Shown here piece by piece: positions 24,241 to 55,771 of a stretch of 64,000 bases of DNA. The stretch spans positions 3,220,168 through 3,284,167 of the forward strand of contig LT827128.1 of assembly GCA_900170005.1 (NCBI GenBank), given 5' to 3'. The stretch's first letter is position 1; every line of letters starts with the position of its first letter. This DNA is from Gordonibacter massiliensis (ex Traore et al. 2017) (lineage in GTDB: Bacteria; Actinomycetota; Coriobacteriia; Coriobacteriales; Eggerthellaceae). Below the pieces are notes generated by a model. The model saw only the letters and a program-made list of their open reading frames with translations, had not been told where the DNA came from and searched no databases. A program made the translations under genes and the position numbers.

Positions 24241-24242
24241 GG

Positions 24243-30074: not shown

Positions 30075-30908
30075 ATGAATGAAAGCCTAAAAGCCATTCA
30101 AGATGTCGAGTATGAACTCCTGCAGGTCGTACTCGACATCGTTGAAACCTATAACTTGACGGCTTTTGCAGCCTACGGAACACTGCTCGGGACGATTCGC
30201 CATCGAGATTTTATCCCGTGGGATGATGATATCGATCTACTTATGATGAGGAATGATTATGAAGCTTTCATATCCATTGCGGAAACGGCATTGCCTGAAG
30301 GATACCACCTCCAAAACTACAAAACCGATACCTCTTACGATCGATATGTTACACGAGTTATCAAAGAGAATACCCGCATTCGGTTAAATTCTTATGAGAG
30401 CGAAAACGAAATGTCGATATGGTTAGATATTTTCCCGCTTGATGCCATGCCGAGTGCTCCTTTCAAAAAGAAGGTGCATGAAAAGAGAATTCTCTTCAGA
30501 AGGGCGCTGTATTCCTTTTCATCTTTCGAGAAAACAGTCAATCTCAATCGCCCGGGAAGGCCAGCTTACCAGCAGGCCATCATTCGCTTTTGCCATAAAA
30601 CCCATTTCGGGCGCAATTTGGATACTCGGAAACAACTGGACAAGCTGGACAAGCTGTTAACAAAATATGATCCGGTTGAATGTAGCAATATCGGATGCTT
30701 TCTATCCACGTACAAAAGACAGGATTGGCCGAAGGAATGTTTCTTTCCGACTGACATCAAGCCATTTAGAGACGTATGGCTGACCGTTCCTGGTCAGTAT
30801 CATGAAATTCTAACGTCCATCTATGGTGACTATATGGTTCTCCCGCCTGAGGACAAACGTGAGATTCACCACATCACGGTTGTGGACATTCCAGAAGACA
30901 AGGCATAA
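30075..30908 (+). CDS. LicD-family phosphotransferase
   Basis: This 277-residue LicD/FKTN-type nucleotidyltransferase-fold protein has the signature AYGTLLGTIRHRDFIPWDD followed by DIDLLMMRNDYE, with its acidic metal-binding cluster. Classic LicD proteins transfer phosphorylcholine to teichoic acid or glycan; relatives transfer other alditol or phospho-groups. Here it could decorate the glycan made by the neighbouring genes. That fits the three nearby proteins bearing choline-binding-type repeats. No choline uptake or activation genes (licA, licB, licC) are in the window, so the donor is unknown. The next gene starts two bases downstream. Confidence 0.88.
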   Translation: MNESLKAIQDVEYELLQVVLDIVETYNLTAFAAYGTLLGTIRHRDFIPWDDDIDLLMMRNDYEAFISIAETALPEGYHLQNYKTDTSYDRYVTRVIKENTRIRLNSYESENEMSIWLDIFPLDAMPSAPFKKKVHEKRILFRRALYSFSSFEKTVNLNRPGRPAYQQAIIRFCHKTHFGRNLDTRKQLDKLDKLLTKYDPVECSNIGCFLSTYKRQDWPKECFFPTDIKPFRDVWLTVPGQYHEILTSIYGDYMVLPPEDKREIHHITVVDIPEDKA

Positions 30909-30910
30909 AA

Positions 30911-31990
30911 ATGAAGACGGTATGTCTTGTGTCGCTAAAGTTTTCTCCGGGGCATTTTTCGCACCTGTTGGCTTATCAGGAGCTATTTCGAGATCTCGGC
31001 TATCGAGTTATTTGCTTCCTAGATGAAGGATATCGATCTTTTTGCCAAGATTGGTCAAGTATGGAATGCGTATATCGGCAAGAACAAGCCCTTCCTGCAG
31101 AACTGGTCTTGATTTACAACCTGTCGGCTAAAGACAGTAAGTTCCTTGCAAGAGCGAAGGCAAAGAACCCCCGTACTAAGACGATCTTCGTCTATCACGA
31201 ACCCTACAGGGGTTTTCGCGAGACATTCGATTCGCTGCGGAAAAGGGAAAGAAGCCTGAAGCATTTTATCGGCATTTGCGGGAGGCATCTGTTTTCAAAA
31301 AGTGTTCTCCGCCGCGTTGATATGGTACTGCTCCCATCGAAAAGTGCCATGGATGAATATAGAGGGCATGATCAAAGATATAACGGTCGGTATGTTCTCT
31401 TCCCCTTGATCTTCACTGACGAACTCACTCCGGAATTGGCCGCTACGCCCAAGGTGTTTTTTTCGTTTATCTCCACAGCCCTCCTTTCCAAGGGAATTAA
31501 AGAATATTTGGATAGTGTTCTCTACATCGCCGAAAGAGATCCCAACGCGCGGTTTCAGATTGCAACCAAATCTGATATCAGCGGGCTTCTCGCAGAGGAG
31601 CATAAAAAACTTGTTGTTGAGAAGCGTCTTGTCATCCAACAGGGGCGCCCGCTTTCAAATGCAGAAATAAATCAAGCTTACGCATCGAGCAATTGTACGT
31701 GGCTTGCATACAACAAATCGACCCAGAGTGGCGTCTTGTGCAAATCATTTATGTTTGGAGCACCGGGGATGGCTACAAACATCGGTGCCTTTCCGGACGA
31801 AATCGACGGAAATAATGGATTGATCCTTTCCAGCAACAAAGATTCAGAAGAAATCTATCAGGCTTTTGAATTGTTGAAAAACGACAATGTTTCTTTTTCG
31901 GCAAGTGCCAGAAGATCGTATCTAGAAAATTTTGATTATAAAAATCATTTGGCCGATATGAGAGCAATTATGGGCCAAATCGATGCGTAA
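30911..31990 (+). CDS. Glycosyltransferase family 4-like protein
   Basis: This 359-residue protein has the two-domain GT-B look. An N-terminal Rossmann half starts KTVCLVSLKFSPGHFSHLLA. The C-terminal half contains KVFFSFISTALLSKGIKEYL, YIAERDPNARFQIATK and LSNAEINQAYASSNCTW, resembling the donor-binding region of GT4-type enzymes. It is the only ordinary glycosyltransferase recognised in the island, suggesting a short repeat unit or help from genes elsewhere. The sugar it adds cannot be read from sequence; a heptose donor is plausible given the neighbouring GDP-heptose genes. Confidence 0.75.
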   Translation: MKTVCLVSLKFSPGHFSHLLAYQELFRDLGYRVICFLDEGYRSFCQDWSSMECVYRQEQALPAELVLIYNLSAKDSKFLARAKAKNPRTKTIFVYHEPYRGFRETFDSLRKRERSLKHFIGICGRHLFSKSVLRRVDMVLLPSKSAMDEYRGHDQRYNGRYVLFPLIFTDELTPELAATPKVFFSFISTALLSKGIKEYLDSVLYIAERDPNARFQIATKSDISGLLAEEHKKLVVEKRLVIQQGRPLSNAEINQAYASSNCTWLAYNKSTQSGVLCKSFMFGAPGMATNIGAFPDEIDGNNGLILSSNKDSEEIYQAFELLKNDNVSFSASARRSYLENFDYKNHLADMRAIMGQIDA

Positions 31991-32049
31991 CGACATTCTG
32001 TATAAATTGATGCAGTCACCATCTGTACATTGCGGTCATTGAAGTATAT

Positions 32050-33195
32050 ATGTTTTGGTACCTGATTCTCACAGGGCTTATTCTTGTTGCTGGTCTAATC
32101 CAGAGGGAAGGCGCTTTTTCAAATAGAGACAACTCAAAGGCTGTATTGATTTCCCTTTGTGTTCTCTTGTTTTTCGTTTCTGCGCTGCGTGCCCCTTCGG
32201 TCGGGGCCGACACAGACCATTACGAAGCTTTATTCAGCTGGCTCGGCATGACCGATTTCTCGCATCTACCCTCCATCCAAACCGGGATCTGGTATATCGA
32301 CGGTACGGATATCCTTTATCGCTATTACTGCAAGATTCTGACGTTCTTCGCAAACGATTCCCATTCCGTCACGGTCGTGAATAGCCTCGTCGTATCGCTG
32401 AGCTTGTACTTCCTTGTGGATGGTCAGTCCCAAGATCGTTGGCTAAGCATCTTCCTGTTCGTTACACTTGGATTCTTCCAACTATCTATGAACCTTGCCC
32501 CGTTCTTCATGGCGATCCAAATCGTCATGTGCGGGTTCCGTTATATCCGGAGCAGAGAACTTCTCAAATATCTGCTTTTCATCGCTATCGGCTTCATCTT
32601 TCATCCGACCACCGTCATCATGATTCCTCTTTACTTCCTTGTGAGAATCAAAATGACGGGGAAACGATTTGTCGCCATTCTCGTCATCGGCACAATCGTC
32701 ACCCTCTTTTTCTATCCTCAATTGCTAAACGCATTAAGCAAAATTGTTCCTGCCCGTTACGTACAGTATCTGCAGGGTGCCAGCCTTACATTCGATAAGA
32801 TCATGGTGTGGAGTACCCACTTGACCATCTTCTTTGTCTGCTGGCTTGCGCAAAAAGATCGTTCCAGCATGTTCAAGGACTATCAGTTTGCCGTATGGGT
32901 GTTCCTGATCGAGTCCCTCGTCTATTTGCTGTCGACTCAAAGCGTAGGTTTCAGCCGCATCGCCTTCATGTTCTCGCCCTATTTCATCATTGTCGTACCG
33001 GAGCTGCTACAGACGTCCAAATGTCGCTTGCCCGAAACACGGTACGGAAAACGACAAAAATTGGATATCCGATTCTTGGCCATCAACCACAATGCCTATA
33101 AATCGGCCATTGTCCTCTTCTGCGTTGCGCAATACATTGGCAGGATGATGGTCAATAATATCGGAACGACGATGCCCTACGTCTTCTATTTTTAA
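32050..33195 (+). CDS. EpsG/Wzy-like polysaccharide polymerase
   Basis: This 381-residue integral membrane protein has about ten hydrophobic segments and the EpsG-family feature FFVSALRAPSVGADTDHYEA after the first helices (R.G.DT motif). Such proteins polymerise lipid-linked repeat units on the outer face of the membrane. It sits directly ahead of the flippase gene (10 bases), the usual wzy-wzx arrangement. Base composition is lower in GC than the core genes. Linkage specificity is unknown. Confidence 0.83.
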   Translation: MFWYLILTGLILVAGLIQREGAFSNRDNSKAVLISLCVLLFFVSALRAPSVGADTDHYEALFSWLGMTDFSHLPSIQTGIWYIDGTDILYRYYCKILTFFANDSHSVTVVNSLVVSLSLYFLVDGQSQDRWLSIFLFVTLGFFQLSMNLAPFFMAIQIVMCGFRYIRSRELLKYLLFIAIGFIFHPTTVIMIPLYFLVRIKMTGKRFVAILVIGTIVTLFFYPQLLNALSKIVPARYVQYLQGASLTFDKIMVWSTHLTIFFVCWLAQKDRSSMFKDYQFAVWVFLIESLVYLLSTQSVGFSRIAFMFSPYFIIVVPELLQTSKCRLPETRYGKRQKLDIRFLAINHNAYKSAIVLFCVAQYIGRMMVNNIGTTMPYVFYF

Positions 33196-33205
33196 GCAGG
33201 AACCA

Positions 33206-34603
33206 ATGGCTAATTCTCTGAAAACCATGTCGAAAGTCTTGACGGGAAGTGTTGTCCTGAAGGGCATTGGTGCCGCCTTGGAGATTGTCGTGCAGGTGTT
33301 CATTACCCGGAGCATGGGCGTTGCGGGATACGGCGATTATTCGTTCTATATCAGCGCAGCCGACCTGGTCTTCTGGTTCCTCTTTTCGGGTATCATCAAA
33401 TGCAACGTTTACTACCTATCGGATGGGGCGACGACTCTCTCCTCCTTTAAAAAGAAATACTACGGATTCTTTGTGGCGCCTATTTTTATCCTGTTCGCAA
33501 TTGCCGCAATCCTTTTCGGGTCGGTACTATTTCTTTTGGCCGATCTCATCCTTATCGCCCATGTGTTCCTTTTCGACTGGAGCAGCCAGTTTTTGGCACG
33601 TGGAAAATACTCAGTCTCTTTGTCCGGCGAATACATCATCGGGCGGCTTGTGTTGATGGTTCTGGTCATCGTCCTCCATTTCGCCCATGCCATGACTATC
33701 GAGACCCTGCTGATCGCCTACCTTCTGCAGATCATCATGGTAGATGTGTTCTTTCTGATCAAGCGCAAGACGCTACCCATCTCCCAAAAGACGCTGAACG
33801 AACCCCATGTTTCTCTTCAGAAACTCTGGCGGTTCCAGGAGACGGATATCGTGACCTCCCTGATCGGCCAAGCGCCCGTCATCCTCCAGTACATTGTTAC
33901 GGATGCGTTTTCTGCGGGCCTCGTCAGCATCGTCGCGCTGATCCGCAAAGTGGTGAACTTCTTCTCGGGTCCAACCGCTAAGGTCTTCCTCCCGGAGTTC
34001 GCCAAGCTATCCAAAGAGGGAAACAAAGAAAAGGTCAAGGAATTCTATCAGGCCATCGTTCGGATCCAGATGCTTTTTGTGAGCGTCATGGCTGTTCTTT
34101 TGTTGGGATGTCCCAAATTGGTCTTGTCTGTGTTCAGTCCTGATTTGGAAGCCTACACGGGCGTCTTCCAGTTGGTGAGTTTCGTCTTCTTGCTGACGGC
34201 TTCCATGGGACCCGCTGGCGGTCTGCTTCAGATGTCCGGCCATGAGAAGGCCGTGAGCTATGTGAAATATATCGCCGCCGCCGTCATGATCGCGATTTGG
34301 TTCCTCCTGTCAAGCGTGGATTTGTTTGTGCTGTATGGCATTTGCGCCGAACTCTTGATCGAGACCGTCATCTACTATGTGTTGGTCTGTAAATTCTTTT
34401 CCGGCCTGCCTGTGCCCGTCGTCACATACATTCGCATTTGGGTTCCCTCCCTCCTGACGGTCATCATCCTTTTTGGGACGGGCTTTGGGGAAACGTGGGC
34501 AGGTCTGGTTGTGGCCGTTGTGTTGGTGGGGGCCCTTCAATTGGCCATCGAAGCAAAGTCCGGAATCTTTTCTTGGCTGGTCAAAGGGGAAAAAGATGCG
34601 TAA
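33206..34603 (+). CDS. Wzx-type oligosaccharide flippase
   Basis: This 465-residue protein has 12 to 14 hydrophobic segments of the MOP/Wzx group. The N-terminus (TMSKVLTGSVVLKGIGAALE, VFITRSMGVAGYGDYSFY) is characteristic of polysaccharide flippases. It moves lipid-linked repeat units across the membrane for the polymerase encoded just upstream. The gene overlaps the pyruvyltransferase-like gene by eight bases. No motif is missing. Confidence 0.88.
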   Translation: MANSLKTMSKVLTGSVVLKGIGAALEIVVQVFITRSMGVAGYGDYSFYISAADLVFWFLFSGIIKCNVYYLSDGATTLSSFKKKYYGFFVAPIFILFAIAAILFGSVLFLLADLILIAHVFLFDWSSQFLARGKYSVSLSGEYIIGRLVLMVLVIVLHFAHAMTIETLLIAYLLQIIMVDVFFLIKRKTLPISQKTLNEPHVSLQKLWRFQETDIVTSLIGQAPVILQYIVTDAFSAGLVSIVALIRKVVNFFSGPTAKVFLPEFAKLSKEGNKEKVKEFYQAIVRIQMLFVSVMAVLLLGCPKLVLSVFSPDLEAYTGVFQLVSFVFLLTASMGPAGGLLQMSGHEKAVSYVKYIAAAVMIAIWFLLSSVDLFVLYGICAELLIETVIYYVLVCKFFSGLPVPVVTYIRIWVPSLLTVIILFGTGFGETWAGLVVAVVLVGALQLAIEAKSGIFSWLVKGEKDA

Positions 34604-35708
34604 TATCGCGATATTTGGGTGGTATGGGCACCGAAACTTAGGAGACGAGTGGATTTTTGAGGCAGCGAAGGGGCTATTGGATCGTTTCGGCGGTGAGTAT
34701 ACGCTAACGATTTACGGCGATCCCTATTGCATCCATGACGAACATGCTGTCCTCCATACGCGAAACATCAAAAGCATCCTGAAAGATGCTTGGAACTGCG
34801 ACGCTTTTTTTTACGCGGGTGGCGGCGCTTTTCCGACAAAGAACAACCTGAAAATCCTGTTCTACGTTCTTGTGAATGCCATTTACCGACTGCGCCATAA
34901 ACCCGTCATCTGTCTTGGCCTAAGTGTTGAATCGTTTCATTTTGAAAGTCTCCTGACCCGTAGGCTGCTGAAATGGTTTGCTGCGACATCAAGCTTGCTG
35001 TCGGTGCGAGACCAGTCTACCTTCTCCGAATTCAGCCGCTTTTTTGACGCCCGGCCTGCCCAGCTCCTGCTTTCTCCTGACACGGTCTTTTCATGGGAAG
35101 GGAAAAGGGGGCAGGCGCCTGCGGGAACGTACGGCATCGTGGCCTTGGCAAATCTGTTCCACCGCGTTTCGGATGACGGCCGGCAAATGCGAGCCTTTGC
35201 GGAAGCGATAGCCGTCGTGTTGGGAAAACTCGAAGAAAGCGGGTATGCCATCCATCTGACCGCCTTCTGCGAGCAAGACGAGGAAATCAACCGCATGGTG
35301 CAAACGATGCTCCCGGAAAAAACCACTTGGGTTCACGATTACAGCGAAACGGACGATCAGGTCTTCGGGCTTGCCGAGAATGCCTCGTTCGTAATAGGCA
35401 TGCGCTTTCATTCCCTTGTGTTGGCGCAAAAGGCCAAGCGTCCCTATTTTGCGATTTCGTACGCCTCGAAGTGCAAGGGCTTCATGCATGACATGCATAT
35501 GGATGCCTATCAAGTGGAGTTCGGCACAGGTGAAGAAGAATACCTCTGCAAGAACATTCCCTTGGATCCGGATGAAATGTATCCCCTCATCCTGGAAATG
35601 CTTCGGGATTCGGATGCAGTGAATGAGCAGTTGGAAGAAAACGAGCGAACCATCATGGAAGGCGTAGCACGCCTAGAAGATGCCTTCGCGCAGGTTTTAT
35701 CGGAATAA
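34596..35708 (+). CDS. Polysaccharide pyruvyl transferase family protein
   Basis: This 370-residue protein of the CsaB/WcaK pyruvyltransferase family begins [20 protein letters not shown], the typical N-terminal motif. It later shows [27 protein letters not shown] and the C-terminal [20 protein letters not shown]. Members add ketal pyruvate to sugars, giving an acidic group that wall-binding domains can recognise. The ATG at 34596 follows AAGGGGA inside the flippase end. A T8 run at 34805-34812 is a possible slippage site. Confidence 0.82.
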
Positions 35709-35737
35709 CCGAGTTTGATTACAGGGTGGGAGTGAAG

Positions 35738-36772
35738 ATGCTGGTACGCTCGAAAGCGCCGTTGCGGCTCGGCTTGGCTGGAGGGGGCACGGATGTGGCA
35801 CCCTATTGCGACCTGTACGGCGGCCTCGTTTTGAATGTCACAATTGACAAATATGCCTATTGCACGATCGAACAGAGCGATGCGATAAGCGGTATCACCT
35901 TTCATGCGGTAGACCGCGGGGAACGGGTCGAATCTCCGGCTGTGGAGCGGTTCGAGCTCAAAGGGGAATTGCTTCTGCATAAAGGTGTGTACAACCGTAT
36001 TGTCGAAACGTTCAACGGGGGTCGCCCCATTCCACTCAAGATGACAACGTACTCCGATGCCCCAGCGGGCTCAGGTCTCGGGTCTTCCTCCACGATGGTC
36101 GTGGCAATGATTAAGGCTTATGTGGAACTGATGAACCTGCCGATCGGCGATTATGAAATCGCCCATCTGGCCTATGAGGTGGAACGGAAAGACATCGGGC
36201 TTTCGGGAGGGAAGCAAGATCAGTATGCAGCCACGTTCGGGGGATTCAACTTCATCGAACTCCTGACGGACGGCAACGTCATCGTGAACCCTTTGCGGAT
36301 CAAGAAATGGGCCCTGAACGAGCTGCAGAATTCCATGATCCTTTACTTCACCGGAACGTCTCGGGACAGCGCGAAAATTATCGATGAGCAAATCAAAAGC
36401 ACCATGGACAAGGAATCAAACGCGATTGAAGGGATGCACGAACTAAAAGAATCCGCCATCCGGATGAAGCACTGTCTATTGAGGGGCGATTTCGACGGCT
36501 TTGCGGAATGCTTGAGGTCGGGCTGGGAAGCGAAAAAAAAGACGTCTTCGGTCATTTCGAATCCTGCGATCGAGGAACTCTATGCGTTCGTCATGGCTAA
36601 TGGCGGGAAAGCCGCAAAAATATCCGGAGCAGGCGGAGGCGGTTTCATGATGATCGTTTGCGATCCTGTCAGACGCTATGAGCTGATCCAGGCCCTCGAA
36701 ACTTACGGAACCGGAACTCCTTCAACTGTTACGTTCGCCGAACATGGCACGCAGGCCTGGACCCTCTATTAG
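35738..36772 (+). CDS. hddA: GHMP kinase, D-glycero-alpha-D-manno-heptose 7-phosphate kinase (HddA-like)
   Basis: This 344-residue GHMP-fold kinase matches the HddA type: [20 protein letters not shown] at the start, the ATP-binding [20 protein letters not shown], and [17 protein letters not shown] at the end. HddA phosphorylates D-glycero-D-manno-heptose 7-phosphate at C1 in GDP-heptose synthesis. That role fits the adjacent gmhA and the hddC-gmhB fusion downstream. The ATG at 35738 has GGGAG about five bases upstream; an in-frame GTG at 35726 is less likely. An A8 tract lies at 36533-36540. Confidence 0.87.
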
Positions 36773-36780
36773 GAATGACA

Positions 36781-37437
36781 ATGAAAAAGAGTGCAGAACA
36801 AACCTTGAACGACCTGATCGCCCGCTACTCTCAGCTCGCTCCATGCCGGCCGGATGTTTTGGCGGCGTTCGACATCCTTGCGGAGATGTACCGAAGCGGT
36901 GGACACCATCTTCTGGTCTGCGGAAATGGAGGAAGTGCGGCAGACAGTGAGCACATCGTGGGCGAGCTGATGAAGACCTTCAAAATAAAGCGATCCGTGC
37001 CCGATGCATTCAAGGAAAAAGCCTCCGCCATGTTGGAAGAAAAACGGGCAGAACAGCTTTGCAGCAATCTCGAAGGCGCCTTGCCGGCTATCTCGCTTGT
37101 CAGCCAATGTGCGCTGTTCACCGCCTTCGGCAACGACAAGAACGCATCTTACGTGTTCGCGCAGCAGGTATTTGGATACGGGTTGCCGGGAGATGCGCTA
37201 CTGGCGATCAGCACGTCGGGCAATTCGGAAAACGTGATCGCCGCTGCCGACGTGGCTCGGATCATCGGCATGAGCGTCATCGCCCTCACGGGTGAAAAAC
37301 CCTCACATCTGTCTGAAAAGGCCAATGTAACCATTCGAGTGCCGGAAACGGAAACCTACAAGATCCAGGAATTGCATCTGCCCGTCTATCACGCCCTCTG
37401 CGCGGCGCTGGAGGCCGAGATGTTCGAAGAGGAATAA
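36781..37437 (+). CDS. gmhA: Sedoheptulose 7-phosphate isomerase
   Basis: This 218-residue SIS-domain isomerase makes D-glycero-D-manno-heptose 7-phosphate, the first step of the heptose pathway. Motifs are LLVCGNGGSAADSEHIVGEL, LAISTSGNSENVIAAA and the zinc/active-site region KIQELHLPVYHALC. The ATG at 36781 has AGGA six bases upstream, while the in-frame ATG at 36775 abuts that site. It follows hddA with almost no gap, so the two are co-translated. Family length is about 190-200; this one is slightly longer. Confidence 0.9.
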   Translation: MKKSAEQTLNDLIARYSQLAPCRPDVLAAFDILAEMYRSGGHHLLVCGNGGSAADSEHIVGELMKTFKIKRSVPDAFKEKASAMLEEKRAEQLCSNLEGALPAISLVSQCALFTAFGNDKNASYVFAQQVFGYGLPGDALLAISTSGNSENVIAAADVARIIGMSVIALTGEKPSHLSEKANVTIRVPETETYKIQELHLPVYHALCAALEAEMFEEE

Positions 37438-41524: not shown

Positions 41525-41615
41525 CATTCAGGTAAAAGGAAAAGCATCATGTGGGGGATCGCCAGAAGATGAAGCCCAATCTGTGGTTGGCCATTGCGGC
41601 AAACAAATGCGCAAA
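40811..41615 (+). repeat. 805-bp duplicated segment, copy 1
   Basis: This segment is almost identical, without indels, to 55058-55862 (offset 14,247). It covers the last wall-binding repeat, the C-terminal domain, the stop codon, the downstream spacer and the first 65 bases of the acetyltransferase reading frame. Identity ends abruptly after 41615. A few substitutions are scattered, for example near 41455 and 41470. Confidence 0.9.
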
Positions 41616-43213: not shown

Positions 43214-43352
43214 AGCATATAGAATACCCAGAGGCAGTCTCATTTGCATCCAAATGATCGGTACAAGTGTGTATTTTATGGTCTCCGATGCTAGAATAGG
43301 ATTGGCTTTCTGATTGTCAATAGCTATGCCTGATGGGGAAAGGTGTCCACAA

Positions 43353-46300: not shown

Positions 46301-49300
46301 CACGGCTGTCGAAGGCAGCGGCTATACGGGTATGATTTCTGCATCCTTCGAAATTGTCAGTCCTGATTTGGCAAAATGCTCAATCAGCTTGGGGAACCTC
46401 ATGTCATCTTACGAGCAGGGAACCATATCTTATTACGCCCTGTATACCGGCTTGCCTATTCTTGCTTTGCCACATGTTTCCTTTTACGGGAACACACTTT
46501 CCGAAGGAACCGACTATGAGGTGGAATACGATCAAAACGTCGGTTCGCCCGACCAGGTAACGACGGCGACCGTGCGGGTCAAGGGCCTCGGAAAGTATGC
46601 GGGAACGGAACAATCCATTACGTTCGACATTTTGCCGAAAATCGATCTCAACCTCCCCGTTTTTACAACGTACATCCGCCATGACGGCGTCTTGCTATGG
46701 AATTCGACCGGCACCCCCACATCTCTTGAGCTCTTGCATACGGGCTCGGCCGTATTGCCTAAGCTTTCCCTTTCACTCCAATCAAGCATGAGCAAGACTT
46801 TTTTCGAAGGCTTCGATTACGGCGTCACGTACGAAGATGAGGATGGCCAGGAAGTTATACCAACCGATGTCGGAACCTATAACCTTGTAATCAAAGCTCT
46901 CCCCGGCAGCCAATTGACCGGCAGAAGGACCATCCCTGTTTCGATTGTCCAAAAACTGAATCTTGCCTCTTATTCGCACGGAATATCCATCAACAATTCG
47001 GGGGGTACTGATAATTTGGTGGAGGTGATCAAGGGAACCACCCCGACCCTCTCTCTTACGAGTTATTACAACGGAGGTAATTTAGTCGAAGGGTATGATT
47101 TTGACTTCTCGAGTAGCTTGGATGAAACGACGGGCATTTGCACCGTCACCGCGACCGGAAAGGGTAAGTTCGAAGGTTCCGTGTCTGCCCGATATCAATT
47201 CGTCGATAGCCTGTCGAATGGATTCGAGGGGATAACATTTTTCGTCAATGGACAGCCCGCGGGCTCGTCCTCCTCTTCAATTTCGCTTTCATTGGACGAG
47301 GAAGGTTTTCTGAAGGATCCGATCATTACAGCAAATGGAAAAGTGAACGGAGTTGATTACCGGCTAGCCGAATACTACGACACAATGGGTAACGAGGTTG
47401 TAGTCGATACACCCGGCATCTATCAGATGCATATCGTTGGGATCGGCATATATGCCGGCGCCGAACGACTCATCCGCGTTCAGGTGCAAAATGAGCAGGA
47501 AGAACCCTTGCGGAACCTTAGCCAAACTTATGGGCCGCAAAATACCCCTTATTGTTATCTACAGGCAGAGGGCGTCGTCCATTCGTCTGGCACCCAAGGA
47601 GATACGGCATGCATATTGAAGAATGAAGCGAACCAACCTCCTGCTTATTCCGTCTTCTGGTCTTCGGGCTACGGAAGCAACCTCCTGCTGGTAGAGGGTG
47701 TCGATTACACCACTTCCTACACCTACGATCTGTCCGTAAACACCGCGTCGATTACTTTTACAGGTATTGAGGAAGCGGGATATACCGGTAGCCGCACCGA
47801 GTCCATCGCGCTGGTCGACTCTTTTGACATTGCAACATGCAGCTCAATATACCTGGACATAAATGCTCAGAATGCGAATGATCGCTTCTACCTGAAAGAT
47901 AGTATCGAGCCAAAAGCAAACGTTTTCCCGAACATTTCAAGTTCCAATCGAGAAGTCCTTCTTGAAAATGTCGATTATCGAATTACCTATCTGCGAGAAG
48001 ATGGAAGTGCGGAATACCCCATCACAAGTCCTGGCCGATGGACGATGCATGTGTATGGAATCGGAAATTGGAGCGGATACCGCGATTTGCCTATTTCCGT
48101 GGAAGACTATTCGAATCAAGACATATCCCTTTCGGAAGCTGAATCGTACCTTGTCGGGGTAACGAGCAACAATGAATGCCTTCTCGTGGACGGGAAAGCC
48201 GAGCCGGAGGTGTCCGTCTCCTTCCAGCAGCAACCATTGGAAGAGGGGAAAGAGTATACGGTCGAGTATGTCAATCAAACCGAACCGGGAGCGGCCTACG
48301 CCCTGATCACCGCCGTACCTGGGAGTGGATTTGCGGGGATGAAATCGATCGGCTATCGGGTTGTCTCCGAATATGACATGAGCCATTCAACAAACTACCA
48401 GCTCTTTGTTCGTTTGCCGAATGGCGAAAAGTCCTATATGTCTTTGTATGATTCACAGATTGGCACAAGCGCGATCCTTGAAAATGGGACGGCTACACTT
48501 GATCTGGGGGTCGCCATCCGTAAAGGGGTAAAGACGGCAAATGGCCGTACGACATACGAGATGATCGACCTCGATCCGGGTTGCTATGAAGTCGAATACG
48601 GAAACAACGACAAACCGGGGATCGCTTGGGTTAAGGTAACGGGGAAAAATGGGTATACAGGTTCTTTGTCAGCCAATTTTATCGTTAAAGAAAAGCCATA
48701 CGACTTCAAAAACGGGTGGAATATCGTCGACGGGAAAACCTATTACTATATGGATGGGCATCTCGCAGAGGGCGAAAAACTGATAGACGGCAAGCGGTAT
48801 TACTTCAACTTCAAGGGCGTACTTGCAAAAGATACGTGGATGGATGTAAACGATGGCCGGGTGTATTGCGGGTCGGATGGCGTCTTCCTCATCGGCCTTC
48901 AAACGGTAGGTGGAAAGAAATACCTTTTCAATGACCAAGGACGCTTGTCGGACGGTTTTGTATCCGTTGGTGCCTCGATGTACTATTACTATCAAGATGG
49001 CACCTTCGCAACTGGTGAACAGTGGATAGACGGAAAGGGCTACTACTTCAAGAAAACCGGTGCCCTGCTGAGGAATACATGGACGGATATCGATAGCGGT
49101 ACTGTTCGTTGCGGTGCGGACGGCGCTTTCCTCACAGGCTACCAAGTGGTGGACGGCAAGAAGTACCTCTTCGACGAGCGCGGCCGCTCCACGGAGGGCT
49201 TCGTCACCATCTCCGGCACGACCTACTATCTGCGCGACGGCGCGTTCCTCGCCGGCGAACAGTGGATCGAGGGCAGCGGGTACTACTTCAAGAAAGCCGG

Positions 49301-50768
49301 CAACCTCGTGAAGAATGCCTGGCTGGACTTCGTGGACGGAAGGGTGCGTTTGGGAGCAGACGGCGCTTTCCTTACCGGCCTCCAGACCGTGGACGGGAAG
49401 ATCTATTACTTCAACGACCAAGGACGTCTGTCGGAAGGGTTTGTTGCGATCGATGATGCAACCTACTATTTCTATGCAGATGGCACGTATGCAACGGGCG
49501 AGAAATGGATCGACGGCAAAGGCTATCAATTCGGAGACAATGGCGCGTTGATCCGGGGAGCATGGATTTCCCTTTCGGACGGGGAGGCCTACGCCGGTGC
49601 AGACGGCGCCTTCCTCACGGGCTATCAAGTGGTGGACGGCAAGAAGTACCTCTTCGATGAGCACGGCCGCTCCACGGAAGGCTTCGTCACCGTGGGCGCG
49701 TCCACCTACTACGTGCGGGGCGGCGCGTTCCTCGCCGGCGAGCAATGGATCGACGGGAAGGGGTACTACTTCAAGAAGACAGGCGCTCTGCTGAAAAATA
49801 CATGGGTTGATTTTGCGGATGGCCAAACCCGTGCCAGTGAAGATGGATCGTTCCTGATTGGCATCCACACCGTGGACGGCATCAAGTTCTTCTTCAACGA
49901 AAATGGGCGAGTAGCCGACCGTGGGTTCGTCACCATTGACGGAACAACCTATTATTATTTGGATGGTGCCTACGCGACCGGTGAGCAACAAATCAACGGT
50001 CAAGGGTACTATTTCAAAAAGACCGGTGCCCTCGTCAAGAATAGCTGGCTCACCCTCGCCGATGGACGACGTGTGTATGCGGGGGAAGTCGGCGCTTTCG
50101 TGACAGGCGAGCAGTGGATCGGGGGCAAAGGATTCTATTTCAAGAAAACCGGTGCCCTTGTTGCGAAGGCTTGGATCACCCTAGCAGACGGAAAAGTGTA
50201 TACCGGTGTGGACGGTGCGTTCCTTATGGGCTACCAAGTGATGGACGGCAAGAAATACCTGTTCGATGAGAAGGGACGTTCTACGGAAGGCTTCGTCACC
50301 ATCTCGGGCACGACCTACTATCTGCGGGACGGTGCCTTCCTCGCCGGCGAGCAGTGGATCGGCAGCCAGGGCTACTACTTCAAGAAAGCCGGCAACCTCG
50401 TGAAGAACGCCTGGATCACCCTCTCGGACGGGAAAGTGTACTGCGGAGAAGCGGGCGCTTTCCTCACGGGCTACCAGATCGTCGACGGCAAGAAATATCT
50501 CTTCGATGAGCGCGGCCGCTCCACGGAAGGCTTCGTCACCATCTCGGGCACGACCTACTATCTGCGGGACGGTGCCTTCCTCGCCGGCGAGCAGTGGATC
50601 GAGGGCCAGGGCTACTACTTCAAGAAAGCCGGCAACCTCGTGAAGAACGCCTGGCTCGACCTCTCGGACGGGAAAGTGTATTGCGGAGAAGCGGGCGCTT
50701 TCCTCACGGGCACCCAGTCCATCGGAGGCAAGGACTACACCTTCGATTCAGCGGGAAGGCTGCTGTAA
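43353..50768 (+). CDS. Giant secreted repeat protein with cell-wall-binding repeats
   Basis: This 2471-residue secreted protein begins at ATG 43353 (MKHWPNAALRIILAGTLVIG), with a ribosome-binding-like GGAAAGG upstream; earlier in-frame starts at 43314 and 43326 are possible. An acidic linker (about 30-85) follows the signal peptide. Residues about 88-1780 are tandem beta-type repeats of roughly 90-105 residues with the pattern WYTGEPI.EP, GTDFRV.GY, PVE.G.Y..VEGIGAYSG and FEV.DPND, like MBG/Ig-type bacterial adhesin repeats. Residues about 1783-2471 are some 35 short choline-binding-type units (GYYFKKTGALLRNTW, KKYLFDERGRSTEGF). No sorting motif or catalytic domain is seen. It is probably a surface stalk or adhesin held by its C-terminus. 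Confidence 0.87.
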   Translation: MKHWPNAALRIILAGTLVIGLMPSLAFGNEPEESSDVVEPSGNATENELVATTEEAPAEAASGVSAHLADETPTNFDSPEEYTPITNCECDWTSFDWYTGQPIEPSLALYYYDSSGNQVTLEKDVDYLVSYRYYSTSETLGGLPTDIAFYTINVEGIGSFSGSQDFNYEIADLFEIGTPHGMQHYIGHAEGTSYWQTGSPVIPDITLNRRGDDQFVLTPGVDFRIASYRDSNWNEMTDAPTLGGFYFAIVEGIGSYHGTKEVPFFISNSIVDCDLHIPDEIVSDGTPIGDPAFGLSYTSNGITYQLTQNTDFEVAYYEDQYGQRMEEAPSNTGLYWAVLVGKGMYSGERSVQFEVTNPYDISNYSVHKNGEIWYTGSPIAAPEFVVYRNHPDGSSTYLTEGIDFIINGYQNNHAEPLAGMPVEVGTYQAVIQGIGMYSGSLIAIFGVEDPNNINRCFSFSVESTIWYTGKPITEPTLIVSRREPDYLPAITLIQGTDFRVKGYLAEDGTPLDSLPVEAGSYYATVEGIDAYSGEVSVPFNIQDPNSIDNFSIWTNGNVWHTGEPISEPAITVRRYAGGGLPEVTLAQGRDFRVKGYAKTDGTPLDGAPVEVGPYSVIVEGIGAYSGETSVWFEVRSPNDIGSFSAYVSETVWHTGEPISEPAITVRRYADGGLPSVILTQGTDFRVTGYRTTDGAILENTPIDIGQYYISLEGIGAYSGTQTVYFEVKDPNDLSNCNATQHGSAYPYTGSPVRPDVTLKTPLGITLNEGRDCLITYQTLQGESLDAAPTEIGNYRMVFSAVEGSGYSGEYVFAFNIFDIHDVSLYSCYTSQPIWYTGEPITEPQFNVTYYDSLSSTSIKLVQGIDYRIAGYVNVNGGPQLAEAPSELGSYYAIIEGIGNYYGTARGHFEIKDPHDLSNMIVSQSGPRSFVYTGDPIIPSFTLSKDYNSQTLFEGRDYTVSYRDGHGYMLSSPPVEVGSYMVVFTAVEGSGYTGMISASFEIVSPDLAKCSISLGNLMSSYEQGTISYYALYTGLPILALPHVSFYGNTLSEGTDYEVEYDQNVGSPDQVTTATVRVKGLGKYAGTEQSITFDILPKIDLNLPVFTTYIRHDGVLLWNSTGTPTSLELLHTGSAVLPKLSLSLQSSMSKTFFEGFDYGVTYEDEDGQEVIPTDVGTYNLVIKALPGSQLTGRRTIPVSIVQKLNLASYSHGISINNSGGTDNLVEVIKGTTPTLSLTSYYNGGNLVEGYDFDFSSSLDETTGICTVTATGKGKFEGSVSARYQFVDSLSNGFEGITFFVNGQPAGSSSSSISLSLDEEGFLKDPIITANGKVNGVDYRLAEYYDTMGNEVVVDTPGIYQMHIVGIGIYAGAERLIRVQVQNEQEEPLRNLSQTYGPQNTPYCYLQAEGVVHSSGTQGDTACILKNEANQPPAYSVFWSSGYGSNLLLVEGVDYTTSYTYDLSVNTASITFTGIEEAGYTGSRTESIALVDSFDIATCSSIYLDINAQNANDRFYLKDSIEPKANVFPNISSSNREVLLENVDYRITYLREDGSAEYPITSPGRWTMHVYGIGNWSGYRDLPISVEDYSNQDISLSEAESYLVGVTSNNECLLVDGKAEPEVSVSFQQQPLEEGKEYTVEYVNQTEPGAAYALITAVPGSGFAGMKSIGYRVVSEYDMSHSTNYQLFVRLPNGEKSYMSLYDSQIGTSAILENGTATLDLGVAIRKGVKTANGRTTYEMIDLDPGCYEVEYGNNDKPGIAWVKVTGKNGYTGSLSANFIVKEKPYDFKNGWNIVDGKTYYYMDGHLAEGEKLIDGKRYYFNFKGVLAKDTWMDVNDGRVYCGSDGVFLIGLQTVGGKKYLFNDQGRLSDGFVSVGASMYYYYQDGTFATGEQWIDGKGYYFKKTGALLRNTWTDIDSGTVRCGADGAFLTGYQVVDGKKYLFDERGRSTEGFVTISGTTYYLRDGAFLAGEQWIEGSGYYFKKAGNLVKNAWLDFVDGRVRLGADGAFLTGLQTVDGKIYYFNDQGRLSEGFVAIDDATYYFYADGTYATGEKWIDGKGYQFGDNGALIRGAWISLSDGEAYAGADGAFLTGYQVVDGKKYLFDEHGRSTEGFVTVGASTYYVRGGAFLAGEQWIDGKGYYFKKTGALLKNTWVDFADGQTRASEDGSFLIGIHTVDGIKFFFNENGRVADRGFVTIDGTTYYYLDGAYATGEQQINGQGYYFKKTGALVKNSWLTLADGRRVYAGEVGAFVTGEQWIGGKGFYFKKTGALVAKAWITLADGKVYTGVDGAFLMGYQVMDGKKYLFDEKGRSTEGFVTISGTTYYLRDGAFLAGEQWIGSQGYYFKKAGNLVKNAWITLSDGKVYCGEAGAFLTGYQIVDGKKYLFDERGRSTEGFVTISGTTYYLRDGAFLAGEQWIEGQGYYFKKAGNLVKNAWLDLSDGKVYCGEAGAFLTGTQSIGGKDYTFDSAGRLL
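45024..45420 (+). repeat. Recent 93-codon duplication in the giant protein
   Basis: The unit starting at 45024 is repeated at 45303 (offset 279 bases). The first 60 or so bases are almost identical (GTTTGGCACACCGGAGAG and following), then divergence grows. Both copies are richer in GC than the surrounding repeats, which suggests recent amplification or conversion. Confidence 0.7.
49117..49330 (+). repeat. GC-rich wall-binding repeat block, copy 1
   Basis: This block of about 210 bases encodes AFLTGYQVVDGKKYLFDERG through AGNLVKNAWLD. It is nearly identical in DNA to blocks at about 50210-50420, 50453-50660 and 54815-55020. Neighbouring repeats encode similar residues with quite different codons, so these blocks were probably spread by recombination, including into the next gene. 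Confidence 0.75.
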
Positions 50769-50783
50769 TTCTCTGAGCTTTGG

Positions 50784-50813: not shown

Positions 50814-50820
50814 TCCCCTG

Positions 50821-50848
50821 TTAAAAATCCGTTGGGGCTTACTATAAT
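50821..50848 (+). promoter_or_regulatory. Promoter of surface-protein paralogue B
   Basis: TATAAT at 50843-50848 is a perfect -10 box. TTAAAA at 50821-50826 is a four-of-six match to -35 at 16 bases. It lies between the hairpin and the ATG at 50888, so this gene can be transcribed on its own. Confidence 0.6.
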
Positions 50849-50887
50849 TCCGGCATGATAACGAATGTGCGCATCGCAAGGGGAAAC

Positions 50888-53800
50888 ATGAAACGCATCG
50901 CTCGTCCGACAGCTACCTTTTGGTTCCTTACATTCTTGCTGGCTGCCGCTTGCGCGGCCGTTCCCCTGCATCAGGCAGATGCGGATGAAGGCAATGCGAT
51001 CCGACCAGCTATGCTTCCTTCCGTATTCCAAACGAGTCAGGCAGAACAGCTCAAAGCAGACTATTTTCTGACGTCCAACTTGTTCCAGCCTTATGCGAAC
51101 TTCACCTATCAAGCACCATATCGTTCGTATCTGGTTCAGATGAGCAATGATTCCACGTTCAAGAACGAATTGATTGCATGGACCACACTGAATTTCGTTT
51201 TCAATCCGGACGAGTTTGCCGGCGGCCTCGCGAAAGGAGACCTCCTCTCTGAACAAGGTTTCTATGAAGCTGCCCTGTTCGACATGCTCTACGAAACCGA
51301 GAAAAGTGATACGCTGCTCGATACCCTGCATGCTTCAATTAAGAAATGCAACGTCGGGGTGTACAAGAACCTATTCAAACAGCTAGACAAAGGCACCATC
51401 GACTACCCCGTTTCGTTCGACATTCCGCTGACGGATGAAGACAAAGCAAAGATCGGGGCGGCTCTGTATGCGGAAGCGGGCGATTCATATGCGAGCACGT
51501 TCGGCTCGCTAGAAACCTTCCAGAAGCTCGTTAGCACCGGTGCCACCATCGAGGAAATGGCCGAACGCGTAGGCACAATGCTCGCTCTGGAAGACTTGTC
51601 GGAATCCACGGTGACCATGCTCCAATCGATGAAGCGATACTGCGGCGTGCATCGAGACGAGGGAAGTTTTGGGCACTTGGAAAATGCTCTGGAAGAGATC
51701 ATCGACCTATATGAGAATCACTTTGATGTGCAAACACTCATATACCAAGAAGCCGCTTCTCTCGCCGTGGACCAAATCCTAGAAAAGGCCAGCGGCCTCA
51801 TCTGGTCGGATATGATTGACAATCTAGGCGGGGGATGGGTGAAACTCGCCTACTCGGTCGGAAAAGCCGCCAACAACGCATGGATTTCCACGGACGCCCG
51901 AATCGAGAAATTCTACGAAATGAAGTCGCTGCTCGATATTGAAATCGCCGTCCAAGACTCCTTGCAGTACTACAAAGCGATCTATCAAAACAATCAGACA
52001 CAAACAAACGCCAGCCATTTCAATGCCGGTGTCAGCATGGCTATTTCGACATACGAACTGGGCCTACGGTATTCGGAGGGCTATTGGACCATTCTAGATA
52101 CCATGGGATTAAACGCCGTCCTCAACGAATTTGGGGAAGGATGGAGCCATTCCGATCTCATCGCAAAGGTAAGTCAAGACCGAACGACGATGGAAAACAA
52201 TTATCGTATGGCTAATGAATTATTAGATGAGTTAAGCACGCAAAACCAAAACGGACATGACGAAGCGTTCGACGAACCCCTCTACATTACGAGCCAAGAA
52301 ACATTCGATGCGTATTGCGACATCTATGGCGATATGCGAAATGTTTACCCCGAACGCTTCTCCAATCTGAAAGTAAACTGCCCCACCGCAATAATGGTTG
52401 ACCGCACATGCCGTATAGGCAAGGAGGCCGACTTCTACACCCTCACGATCGAGGAGGGCGGCTCGCTCCGCGTCGAGGGCAGCGCCTCCTCGACCTACCT
52501 CGACGTCCGCGGCGGGAGCCTCCTCGTGGACGGCGACCTCCGCGTCTCGCTTGTCTACATGGACTCCGACGCGTCCCTGGTTAGCGTGTCGGGCAACCTC
52601 TTGGCCGAGCGTTCTAGCTACGCATCGCGCCAAATGGAGGCTGGCACCTTCGAAGTGGGGGGCGACGTGCATCTCGAGGGCGGCTACTGGTTCGGGGCCG
52701 TAGGCGCCTGCCGCGTGGTGCTGTGCGGCGACGGCCCGCAGGCGGTGGACGGCGACGGGGGCCTCGGGAACACCGAGTTCAGGAACCCGGACGTGGACGT
52801 GTCCATCACCGGGACCCTCTCGCTGGCCGGGGACGCGCAGGCCGATGGAGCCGTGTCGGCGGGCACCCTCAACCTGAACGGGCACCGGCTCACCGCGGCG
52901 AAGGACGTCTCCACGTCGACGCTGCTCGCCACCGGCGCCTCCGCCGTCCATGCGGGAGGCCGGCTGCATGTGGGCTCCTGCATGCTGGAGGCGGGCGCTG
53001 CCGTGGACGCTTCCGCGCCGGAGGCCGACTTCTACTCCCTCTCGATCGAGGAGGGCGGCTCGCTCCGCGTGGAGGGCAGCGCCTCCTCGACCTACCTGCA
53101 CGTCAACGGCGGGAGCCTTTTCGCGGACGGGGACCTCCGCGTCCGCGACGTCGATATGGACTCCGACGCGTCCCTGGTGAGGGTGTCGGGCGCCCTCTCG
53201 GCCGGGCACGGCGGCTACACGTCGTACCGCATGGAGGCCGGGTCCTTCGAGGCGCTGGGCGACGTGCACCTCGAGGGCGGGGAGGGGTTCGGGGCCGTAG
53301 GCGCCTGCCGCGTGGTGCTGTGCGGCGACGGCCCGCAGGCGGTGGACGGCTACGGGAACCTCGGGAACACAATCAATGCCCACGCCATTGAAAAAGAAGC
53401 CTCTATTCCAGAGTTTGCTGTAGGATGCTACATTTGGGATCCTGATTACCATCGCACAAACAAGTACTTGCAATTGGCAACCAGCGACATAGGAAAACAG
53501 GCATATGTCTATTCAGGGACCCCCATCGCCCTATCACCGATTGTCAGCTACGGAGATCATTATCTGCAGGAAGGAATAGATTTCACCGTTTCCTATTCAA
53601 ACAATGTAAATGCAGGGACGGCATCGGCCACTTTAGCAGGATTGGGTGAGGTCAAGGGTTCAAAAACCGAGAGCTTCACTATCCAGCCGCTTGAAATTGG
53701 CGTGGTTGAAATAGAACCGATTCAGAATCAAATATATACTGGCTCTCCCCTTGCGCCTGATGCAACTCTCTCACTTAATGGAAGACCGCTCGAGAAGGGA

Positions 53801-55771
53801 ATCGACTACGAACTGGTTCCAGCAGAGTCGATTCTTCCTGGAGAAGCTACCGTACGCATTAACGGAATTGGAAACTTCGAAGGAACCGTCGAAGTGCCTT
53901 TCACCATAATTTGTGATGGGTGGACCACTTTTGGCAATTCAACGTACTACTATCAAGAAAACAAACCCATTACAGGAGAAACATGGATCGACGGCCGCGG
54001 TTACTACTTCAAGAAGACCGGCGCCCTCGTGCGTGGCGCATGGCTCACTCTTCCTGACGGAAAAACGTACGCCGGCAGCGACGGTGCCTTTCTTGCGGGG
54101 CAACAGATCATTGGCGGCAAAAAATATTACTTCGATGAACTTGGACGAACGAGAGAAGGTTTCATTACGGTCGGAAACTCTGTTTTCTATTACCAAGCCG
54201 AAGGGTACGCGACAGGGGAAACATGGATCGACGGGAAAGGCTACTACTTCAAGAAGACGGGTGTCCTCGTGCAGAACGCCTGGCTCGACTTCATAGATGG
54301 TCAGGTGCGCACGGGCAGTGACGGGGCATTCCTTACGGGTCTTCAGATCATCGACGGGAAAAAGTATCTCTTTGACGAGAAGGGACGCTCCATTGAAGGT
54401 TTCGCCACCGTCGGTGCCTCTACCTATTATTTGAAGGATGGTACTTACCTGATTGGTGAACAAAAAATACTTGGGAAGAGCTACTACTTCAAGAAGACCG
54501 GCATTCTTGTCAAAAATGCCTGGTTGGATCTCGTTGATGGACGACGAGTTTATGCAGGCAACAACGGAGCTTTCCTTTCCGGCGAGCAGTGGATCGGGGG
54601 CAAAGGATTCTATTTCAAGAAGACAGGTGCCCTCGTCCGAAGGACATGGTTGGATCTCGCTGACAGTCGCCGTGTTTTTGCATCAGAAGATGGCTCGTTT
54701 GCTTTGGGCGAGCAGTGGATTGGCAACCACGGCTACTATTTTAATGACAACGGAGATTCTCTCGCAAATCAGTGGCTTGACCTTGCCGATGGTCGGGTGC
54801 TTACAGATGCGGACGGCGCTTTCCTCATAGGCTACCAGATCGTCGACGGCAAGAAATACCTCTTCGACGAGCGCGGCCGCTCCACGGAAGGCTTCGTCAC
54901 CATCTCGGGCACGACCTACTATCTGCGGGACGGTGCCTTCCTCGCCGGCGAGCGGTGGATCGAGGACCAGGGCTACTACTTCAAGAAAGCTGGCAACCTC
55001 GTGAAGAACGCCTGGCTCGACCTCGCGGACGGCAGGGTGTACGCCGGGGCGGACGGCGCGTTCCTGACCGGCGAGCAGACGATCGCCGGCGAGCCGTTCT
55101 CCTTCGACGACCGCGGCCGCCTCTTGCAGGCCGAAGCCTCGGAAGCGCCGCTGCCGCCCTCCGACCCGGTGACGGAGGAGGCAGCCCCTGTCGTGGAGAT
55201 GCCTGAGCCGGGGGTCGGGGAGGCCGTCGCTTCCCCGGCGGAACAAACGCTAGCCGAAGGGCCCGCCGCAGATGTTGAGGACGTCGAGGAGGCCCGCCTC
55301 TCGCTCGCCCTGCTGGACGCCGTGACCGGGGAGCGGCTCGAGGGCAAGTCCTACACGCATCCGGAGCTCGAGGCGCTCGCCGCGGAGGGGGCTGAGCCCG
55401 TGTCCGTTCTATGCGAACGCGAGGATGGTACCTACGAGGCGCGCACGGCCGCGGCTTACGTGACGCTTGAGGCGCTGCTCGCCGACGCCGGCCTGCAGGG
55501 GGCCTGGAGGGAGGGCGCCGTGCTGCTCGTGGACGGCGGCGAGGGCGAGGAGGCGCACACCTTCGGGGATCTCTCGCGGGAAGGGTGGTTCTACCCCTCC
55601 GCGACGGCCGACGCCCTCGTGCCGGACGGGCGTCGGGCGTCGGCGCCGGTTCTTTGCTTCGCTTACACGGAATCGCCGATTCTTACGACGGCTGAAGATT
55701 CTGAAGGGGATATTATAAGTTGCTTGCCAATCGAAAGCCCGTTTTTTGTCATGATTGGTTTACCCGATTAA
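50888..55771 (+). CDS. Large secreted surface protein with cell-wall-binding repeats (paralogue B)
   Basis: This 1627-residue protein starts at ATG 50888 behind AAGGGGA, with a signal peptide (FWFLTFLLAAACAAVPLHQA, cleavage near ADA-DE). A helical region runs to about residue 500. Residues about 505-865 are beta-solenoid-like and contain two 116-residue near-identical units (GGSLRVEGSASSTYL, VVLCGDGPQAVDG). Ig-like repeats follow (865-1008, YSGTPIALSPIVSYG), then choline-binding-type repeats (1008-1411) and the same C-terminal domain as paralogue A (1415-1627). The layout matches 37490-41524. The segment 52420-53370 is far richer in GC than its flanks, a sign of mosaic origin. Confidence 0.87.
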   Translation: MKRIARPTATFWFLTFLLAAACAAVPLHQADADEGNAIRPAMLPSVFQTSQAEQLKADYFLTSNLFQPYANFTYQAPYRSYLVQMSNDSTFKNELIAWTTLNFVFNPDEFAGGLAKGDLLSEQGFYEAALFDMLYETEKSDTLLDTLHASIKKCNVGVYKNLFKQLDKGTIDYPVSFDIPLTDEDKAKIGAALYAEAGDSYASTFGSLETFQKLVSTGATIEEMAERVGTMLALEDLSESTVTMLQSMKRYCGVHRDEGSFGHLENALEEIIDLYENHFDVQTLIYQEAASLAVDQILEKASGLIWSDMIDNLGGGWVKLAYSVGKAANNAWISTDARIEKFYEMKSLLDIEIAVQDSLQYYKAIYQNNQTQTNASHFNAGVSMAISTYELGLRYSEGYWTILDTMGLNAVLNEFGEGWSHSDLIAKVSQDRTTMENNYRMANELLDELSTQNQNGHDEAFDEPLYITSQETFDAYCDIYGDMRNVYPERFSNLKVNCPTAIMVDRTCRIGKEADFYTLTIEEGGSLRVEGSASSTYLDVRGGSLLVDGDLRVSLVYMDSDASLVSVSGNLLAERSSYASRQMEAGTFEVGGDVHLEGGYWFGAVGACRVVLCGDGPQAVDGDGGLGNTEFRNPDVDVSITGTLSLAGDAQADGAVSAGTLNLNGHRLTAAKDVSTSTLLATGASAVHAGGRLHVGSCMLEAGAAVDASAPEADFYSLSIEEGGSLRVEGSASSTYLHVNGGSLFADGDLRVRDVDMDSDASLVRVSGALSAGHGGYTSYRMEAGSFEALGDVHLEGGEGFGAVGACRVVLCGDGPQAVDGYGNLGNTINAHAIEKEASIPEFAVGCYIWDPDYHRTNKYLQLATSDIGKQAYVYSGTPIALSPIVSYGDHYLQEGIDFTVSYSNNVNAGTASATLAGLGEVKGSKTESFTIQPLEIGVVEIEPIQNQIYTGSPLAPDATLSLNGRPLEKGIDYELVPAESILPGEATVRINGIGNFEGTVEVPFTIICDGWTTFGNSTYYYQENKPITGETWIDGRGYYFKKTGALVRGAWLTLPDGKTYAGSDGAFLAGQQIIGGKKYYFDELGRTREGFITVGNSVFYYQAEGYATGETWIDGKGYYFKKTGVLVQNAWLDFIDGQVRTGSDGAFLTGLQIIDGKKYLFDEKGRSIEGFATVGASTYYLKDGTYLIGEQKILGKSYYFKKTGILVKNAWLDLVDGRRVYAGNNGAFLSGEQWIGGKGFYFKKTGALVRRTWLDLADSRRVFASEDGSFALGEQWIGNHGYYFNDNGDSLANQWLDLADGRVLTDADGAFLIGYQIVDGKKYLFDERGRSTEGFVTISGTTYYLRDGAFLAGERWIEDQGYYFKKAGNLVKNAWLDLADGRVYAGADGAFLTGEQTIAGEPFSFDDRGRLLQAEASEAPLPPSDPVTEEAAPVVEMPEPGVGEAVASPAEQTLAEGPAADVEDVEEARLSLALLDAVTGERLEGKSYTHPELEALAAEGAEPVSVLCEREDGTYEARTAAAYVTLEALLADAGLQGAWREGAVLLVDGGEGEEAHTFGDLSREGWFYPSATADALVPDGRRASAPVLCFAYTESPILTTAEDSEGDIISCLPIESPFFVMIGLPD
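52424..52773 (+). repeat. 350-bp in-frame direct repeat, copy 1
   Basis: This segment is repeated at 53021-53370 with an exact offset of 597 bases (199 codons) and no indels in the parts compared. It encodes the beta-solenoid unit beginning EADFY and ending near GLGNT. Differences are few and clustered. Recombination between the copies would delete or add 199 residues in frame. Confidence 0.85.
53021..53370 (+). repeat. 350-bp in-frame direct repeat, copy 2
   Basis: Second copy of the 52424-52773 unit. Beyond 53370 the DNA returns abruptly to the lower-GC style of the rest of the gene. Confidence 0.85.

Follow-up and report, generated by a model that had tools for sequence, protein, structure and literature searches.

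A LoaP-headed capsule-type operon of Gordonibacter massiliensis combines a LicD enzyme with three giant repeat proteins without the paired aromatic choline cage

In pneumococcal choline-binding modules choline is contacted by the first and second aromatic residues of a repeat, usually tryptophan, with the consensus TGW...WYY (excerpt of PMC4929436), and in Erysipelothrix rhusiopathiae the capsule is believed to carry a group that is bound by the organism's own repeat protein SpaA (extract of PMC7083082). Here we analyzed a locus of comparable composition in the 3.95 Mb single-contig genome of Gordonibacter massiliensis, within a stretch of 64,000 nucleotides (contig positions 3220168–3284167, hereafter the window), where the gene of a LicD-family phosphotransferase and those of three giant repeat proteins, A, B and C, share one cluster with a glycan pathway. 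A preliminary description had seen in it a self-contained system, in which LicD adds phosphorylcholine or a related group to a glycan that in turn anchors the giants by choline-binding repeats, and had supposed this combination, with heptose synthesis and a pyruvyltransferase, to be undescribed; no description of it was found in the open-licence PMC literature. The giants of the window, however, possess no paired aromatic choline cage. We regard it as an even question whether the locus would be a choline-free variant of such a system, in which a heptose-containing capsule with another phospho-modification is bound by putative binding proteins encoded alongside it.

The repeat units were located with a 20-column unit model whose seeds we chose ourselves. 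Among the 46 units found in the window position 2 of the cage is aromatic in none and glutamic acid is the commonest residue at position 1, so that no unit of the 45 with both positions aligned has the aromatic pair. Tryptophan at position 2 is found in 0/36 units of the window versus 167/205 in the sampled proteins of relatives bearing a LicC-LicA fusion. With overlapping loci removed, the pair is present in 155 of 189 units from relatives with the fusion (30 sampled loci) and in 8 of 42 from relatives without it (18 loci), the contrast with the fusion-bearing relatives being biased upward as 30 of the 57 comparison loci are the best-scoring repeat places; the zero in the window is unaffected by the choice of these loci. 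Four loci (L120, L121, L134 and L136) gave no unit matches, and the overlapping loci left out of the final count are six, one of them without units.

The giants are nevertheless members of the choline-binding superfamily by name, as A (37490–41524), B (43353–50768, its open reading frame (ORF) opening at 43314) and C (50888–55771, opening at 50855), all on the forward strand, carry tandem repeats of about 20 amino acids that score 81, 199 and 98 bits, respectively, against Choline_bind_3 (cut-off 27). All 21 Choline_bind_3 and 10 Choline_bind_2 matches of the genome at E ≤ 0.001 fall within these three proteins (Choline_bind_1 was not part of the genome-wide search), and they are thus the only such proteins found, in one cluster as described before. 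In a scan covering the repeats of A and C, C exceeded the cut-off of TIGR04035, a glucan-binding repeat (151.7 against 147.7), and A fell short of it (100.6). Hence the Pfam name is what remains of the assignment of the repeats to the choline-binding type. The repeat stretches of the three giants are regular and alike, showing 57–73% identity to the first of ten, and a 220-residue model of them reached a pLDDT of 96.7. Its top matches by Foldseek and phmmer are clostridial CROPs, glucansucrases, GtfD and pneumococcal choline modules (TM-score by query length 0.31–0.64). In our preferred reading these C-terminal beta-solenoids are of the CROP/glucan-binding sort and not of the choline-cage sort. 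The likeness to CROPs might suggest a relationship to toxins; we considered and discarded it, since neither Pfam (A, B and C) nor NCBIfam (A, C and the N-terminal portion of B) recognized a toxin enzyme domain, and only the repeat module is common to toxins and giants.

A donor for choline would be expected from LicC and LicA. The sole choline-kinase-family match of the genome (E ≤ 1) is a fusion of a winged-helix, a LicC-like and a LicA-like part (C1:1697028–1698839), located after an IspD-like gene and 1.55 Mb away from the cluster, with LicC (1jyk, 7e-28) and choline kinases as best PDB matches. Of the 138 Eggerthellaceae genomes, 88 contain a match to it at E ≤ 1e-20, but its own type (at least 56% identity) occurs in seven genomes, the other places showing 26–38% except for a fragment of 150 residues (47%). 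The commoner type is present as well in all of the six other own-type genomes but G127. LicC is reported to have a composite aromatic box for choline (section of PMC6697681), to which we infer that positions 136 and 165 belong. All seven own-type fusions have leucine in place of Trp136 and leucine, methionine or valine in place of Trp165, whereas the canonical ones that could be aligned (11/11) keep Trp/Tyr and Phe/Trp. As the same section reports that a relative with the corresponding aromatics intact prefers another substrate, this comparison is suggestive only. The genome has five IspD-family matches (C1:1794741, 1696270, 1916818, 1695175 and 2033021, the last being weak and possibly GlmU), none of them in the cluster, and this exceeds the one needed by the housekeeping pathway. 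At L018:7170–10843 an HTH-IspD gene, an IspD-like gene and a divergent winged-helix-LicC-LicA fusion stand side by side; in another genome the same trio accompanies two LicDs of PF04991 within a cluster that LoaP heads (L093, G101).

To the LicD itself (30075–30908, forward strand; PF04991, 1.2e-43), which was recognized correctly in the preliminary description and is the single PF04991 match of the genome, we applied a phylogenetic analysis. A profile scan of genome contigs with this LicD alone returned nothing; an alignment-based scan did find matches. In a tree of the family LicDs it stands alone on a long branch. In a tree with named relatives (44 of 80 fetched loci, and 18 family LicDs) it falls into a clade of 16 rows with support 96/95, the other 15 being 13 Bacillota and 2 Fibrobacterota. 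No linked LicA or LicC-LicA homologue was found in the fetched flanks of these 15, an absence that is weakened by short contigs (e.g. L157, L161 and L162) and that leaves uncounted weak LicC-only matches of 24–26% in L167 (where it coincides with HddC), L171, L178 and L181. Such a link is present in two of the five other named rows on the window's side of the tree and in 15 of the 24 named relatives on the other side. These counts use the 44 named loci only; from the family rows set aside, eight are marked as having LicC near, of which two have the fusion on another contig and three at 10.8–12.6 kb, while a fusion at about 7 kb in L071 is outside these labels.

In this clade a priming transferase is encoded in the flanks of 7/15 relatives; according to ORF positions it adjoins LicD in Streptococcus infantis SK970, Gemella, Blautia and one Ruminococcaceae locus, and in S. 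oralis and Ligilactobacillus a single gene lies between the two. IspD-type genes occur in the flanks of three of the 15, and cytidylyltransferases of PF01467 make up 4 of the 124 neighbouring ORFs tallied (out of 129). The sole PDB relative of the LicD profile is fukutin-related protein (8e-14, over 41 positions), a ribitol-phosphate transferase. For the EPA locus of Enterococcus faecalis, which has a Wzy-type primer, LicD has been proposed to transfer ribitol phosphate from CDP-ribitol (part of PMC7188991). A CDP-polyol or another CDP-alcohol appears more likely as donor than CDP-choline.

The cluster is a Wzy-type operon for a capsule or cell-wall polysaccharide, with CpsABCD-type regulators, a priming transferase and Wzy present. 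It starts with the antiterminator LoaP, a NusG paralogue (28504–29025, start codon approximate; NF033641, 160.5 bits, cut-off 125), followed after 273 nt by the priming sugar-1-phosphate transferase (29299–30009; PF02397, 2.5e-58), an order that recurs in the congeners G067 and G068 and in G101 (loci L091, L092 and L093). Behind LicD follow a group 1 glycosyltransferase (30911–31990; PF13692, 8e-8), an EpsG-type polymerase (32050–33195; PF14897, 1e-32) and a polytopic membrane protein with 13 hydrophobic windows (33206–34603). For the latter neither Pfam nor NCBIfam gives a match at E ≤ 0.5, and the PDB has no convincing relative (best E 1.4), so that its designation as putative Wzx rests on gene place and topology; of the complete Wzx/Wzy pathway claimed before, the Wzy half is therefore the one with a family match. 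Next are a polysaccharide pyruvyltransferase (PS_pyruv_trans, 34596–35708; PF04230, 1.6e-23, the CsaB model being under its cut-off), an HddA-like heptose-7-phosphate kinase (35726–36772; NF049969, 6e-121) and a GmhA-like sedoheptulose-7-phosphate isomerase (36775–37437; SIS_2; TIGR00441, 7e-37). After giant A a single protein (41551–43185) is a triple fusion of a serine-acetyltransferase-like part, HddC and GmhB, assigned by family matches, and the PDB relatives agree for its HddC and GmhB domains. GmhA, HddA, GmhB and HddC are thus all four adjacent and best-named matches, each under the NCBIfam cut-off for that name, and the heptose synthesis and pyruvyltransferase noted earlier are both in place. 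GDP-derived D-glycero-D-manno-heptose is probably a component of the glycan, whose short unit would comprise a hexose-1-phosphate primer, heptose, pyruvate and a phospho-group added by LicD.

All these genes lie on the forward strand with distances from the priming transferase onward between an 8-nt overlap and 167 nt (the pyruvyltransferase start being set to 34596 for this measurement), and a single transcript from LoaP to the giants would fit this layout. Because giant A is flanked by gaps of only 52 nt before and 26 nt after, it sits inside the heptose block, between gmhA and hddC-gmhB. Scans for promoter and terminator patterns gave no decisive operon break and were not used, and Rfam gave no match at the gathering threshold in 27900–56400. 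The cluster genes have a GC content of 0.44–0.57 against about 0.63–0.70 in the flanks and thus form an island of lower GC. Divergent from the operon and in the same island, on the reverse strand (24956–27998), are a LytR-CpsA-Psr (LCP) glycopolymer ligase (24956–26152; PF03816, 3e-17), a sortase (26133–26990; PF04203, 4e-14) and a small secreted protein with an SPQTG sorting-like tail seen in its sequence (27135–27998; NF033846, 22.8, just under the cut-off of 23.5). CpsB, CpsD-like AAA_31 and Wzz, for capsule regulation and chain length, are encoded on the same strand of this island (22636–24905; by Pfam).

Giant A consists of a signal peptide, helical, beta-helix-like and Ig-like parts, solenoid repeats and a C-tail, its non-solenoid domains being assigned by eye and from a weak model; C has the same architecture, and B has tandem Ig-like repeats, assigned by eye with MBG_3 at E 0.08 only, before its solenoid. 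No sortase motif is seen by eye at the C-termini, which makes a non-covalent attachment plausible. A and C share 95% identity in their C-tails of 219 residues (634/657 bases), and the near-identical blocks 40840–41615 and 55087–55862 continue beyond the stop codon, so that a duplicate of the first bases of the 41551 gene follows C. This suggests a recent duplication or conversion, of which 55772–55862 (forward strand) is a remnant holding the bases 3' of the A stop codon including the first 65 of that gene. The 219-residue tail (55112–55768, forward strand) has no Pfam or NCBIfam match and distant relatives only, at 29–44% in eight other genomes of the family and at 26% in one further place of its own genome.

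Islands that bring together LicD, LicC-LicA fusions and proteins with canonical choline repeats recur across the 138 genomes of the family, and they often hold two LicDs from separate clades. Among the matches listed, i.e. the best-scoring part (two partial LicC-LicA matches dropped), 25 of 51 LicD genes have a repeat match no more than 15 kb away, with 1.85 expected at random (23 genomes with both listed), compared to 12/31 for LicC-LicA (1.17 expected) and 4/26 for priming transferases (0.77 expected). Repeat proteins are therefore tied more closely to LicD and LicC-LicA than to polysaccharide loci in general, although the latter are enriched too. Canonical choline cages prevail among the best-scoring relatives, and the 11 whose repeat proteins we inspected have canonical choline repeats, many with wall-active domains in our reading of the sequences. 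A giant of 2203 amino acids in G052 (L137:13705–20000 and L138:1–307, both reverse strand) has many repeat cores without the WYY tryptophan and is located at the end of a polysaccharide cluster with Wzy_C, GT2, a DegT aminotransferase and a priming transferase.

In the model we prefer, LoaP would carry RNA polymerase through the operon, whose pathway would make a heptose-containing, pyruvylated unit on a hexose-1-phosphate primer. LicD would add a phospho-group from a CDP-alcohol, Wzy would polymerize the units and the LCP enzyme would attach the chain. The secreted giants would then be held non-covalently on the polymer by their solenoids, via sugar or phosphate epitopes and not via choline. 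From the preliminary idea that the modified glycan anchors the cell's own giants we thus retain the anchoring, which is consistent with the co-encoding, the missing sortase motif and the LicD/repeat linkage in the family, with the glycan as putative ligand, and drop the choline. More tentatively, and with clearly less confidence, the LicD-type capsule islands of the family may carry matched glycan/receptor pairs, usually phosphocholine together with cage-bearing repeats, of which both halves changed together here, with another LicD group or a heptose/pyruvate epitope being read by re-targeted repeats.

That LicD adds phosphocholine and the repeats are choline-binding anchors appears very improbable to us. 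It could draw on the Pfam names of the repeats, on the LicC-LicA-like fusion with LicC as its best PDB match and on the common linkage of LicD with canonical choline repeats, but the window has no cage in 45 units, its fusion is remote and has lost both LicC aromatics as in all own-type genomes, and the LicD clade has no linked LicA or LicC-LicA (0/15). The general idea of a LicD paired with own repeat proteins fits the family well; its choline part misfits the window. Almost as improbable is that the repeats form a ligand-free stalk and that any retention at the surface is due to the N-terminal parts: in its favour the choline cages are gone, against it the stretches of the three giants are regular and alike. 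A greater share of doubt, though still the smaller part of our expectation, goes to the giants being adhesins for glycans of the host, the diet or other bacteria in an operon that is a surface-variation island. Glucan-binding and CROP repeats bind outside glycans, these are the closest relatives of the giants' repeats, and a CROP structure among the listed matches is a complex with sugar; the weakly supported beta-helix-like and Ig-like parts, the lower GC and the congeners without these proteins point the same way. Against it stand that no other anchor is visible by eye on the giants and that one giant gene lies between two heptose-pathway genes.

Several points weigh against the choline-free, self-binding capsule. 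The giants may indeed be adhesins for foreign glycans, and the model for the 1000 residues of C before the solenoid is poor (pLDDT 42 from a two-row alignment), being unusable but for a weak beta-helix-like stretch. The four congeners searched (G065–G068) have no Choline_bind_3 match. The divergent fusion may feed the window's LicD in trans with a CDP-choline-like donor, as a LicC-LicA-type match is present in 73 of the 84 family genomes with LicD, the window's included. Nor is the rule that genomes without LicC-LicA have no tryptophan cage a clean one: such genomes have the 8/42 paired units above, with WYY units in G005, G009, G088, G008 and G079, and G052 has LicC-LicA, yet its giant is without the WYY tryptophan. 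As this giant adjoins a transposase gene, its linkage may be hitch-hiking. By mere presence LicD is found in 35/50 repeat-bearing genomes and 49/88 without repeats (Fisher p 0.11) and LicC-LicA in 36/50 and 52/88 (p 0.14), so that the signal is one of linkage and not of presence.

If the choline-free capsule is true, bacteria could swap the tag of their surface proteins by exchanging capsule cassette and repeat specificity together, and a ligand change among choline-, glucan- and CROP-type repeats would become directly testable, for which the LicD/repeat linkage in the family offers a ready set of natural pairs. It would also be a warning that the Pfam label Choline_bind and the name LicD do not imply phosphocholine.

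With the pneumococcal choline-binding proteins and Lic system (LytA, CbpF and Pce; LicABCD) the locus shares the repeat superfamily, the solenoid fold, a LicD-family enzyme and a putative logic of non-covalent display; it differs in having neither the paired aromatic cage nor linked LicA or LicC and in placing the genes within a Wzy capsule operon. Erysipelothrix SpaA is similar in the pairing of a capsule with an own repeat protein but works with phosphorylcholine and GW-motif repeats. The choline islands of the Eggerthellaceae (e.g. G015, G003 and G059) likewise have LicD near repeat genes, with a LicC-LicA fusion in the region, but have canonical TGW...WYY cages where the window has none, and the window's LicD belongs to another clade. 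The glucan-binding (GTF) and CROP repeats are the best matches in sequence and fold, while the family searches detected neither a glucansucrase nor a toxin enzyme domain in the giants, which have only the repeat module in common with them. Finally, the variable EPA locus of E. faecalis and streptococcal cps loci resemble the window in that a Wzy-type locus contains both LicD and a priming transferase, whereas the loci of the 15 clade relatives have no repeat protein according to a regex screen of their flanks, on contigs that are partly short.

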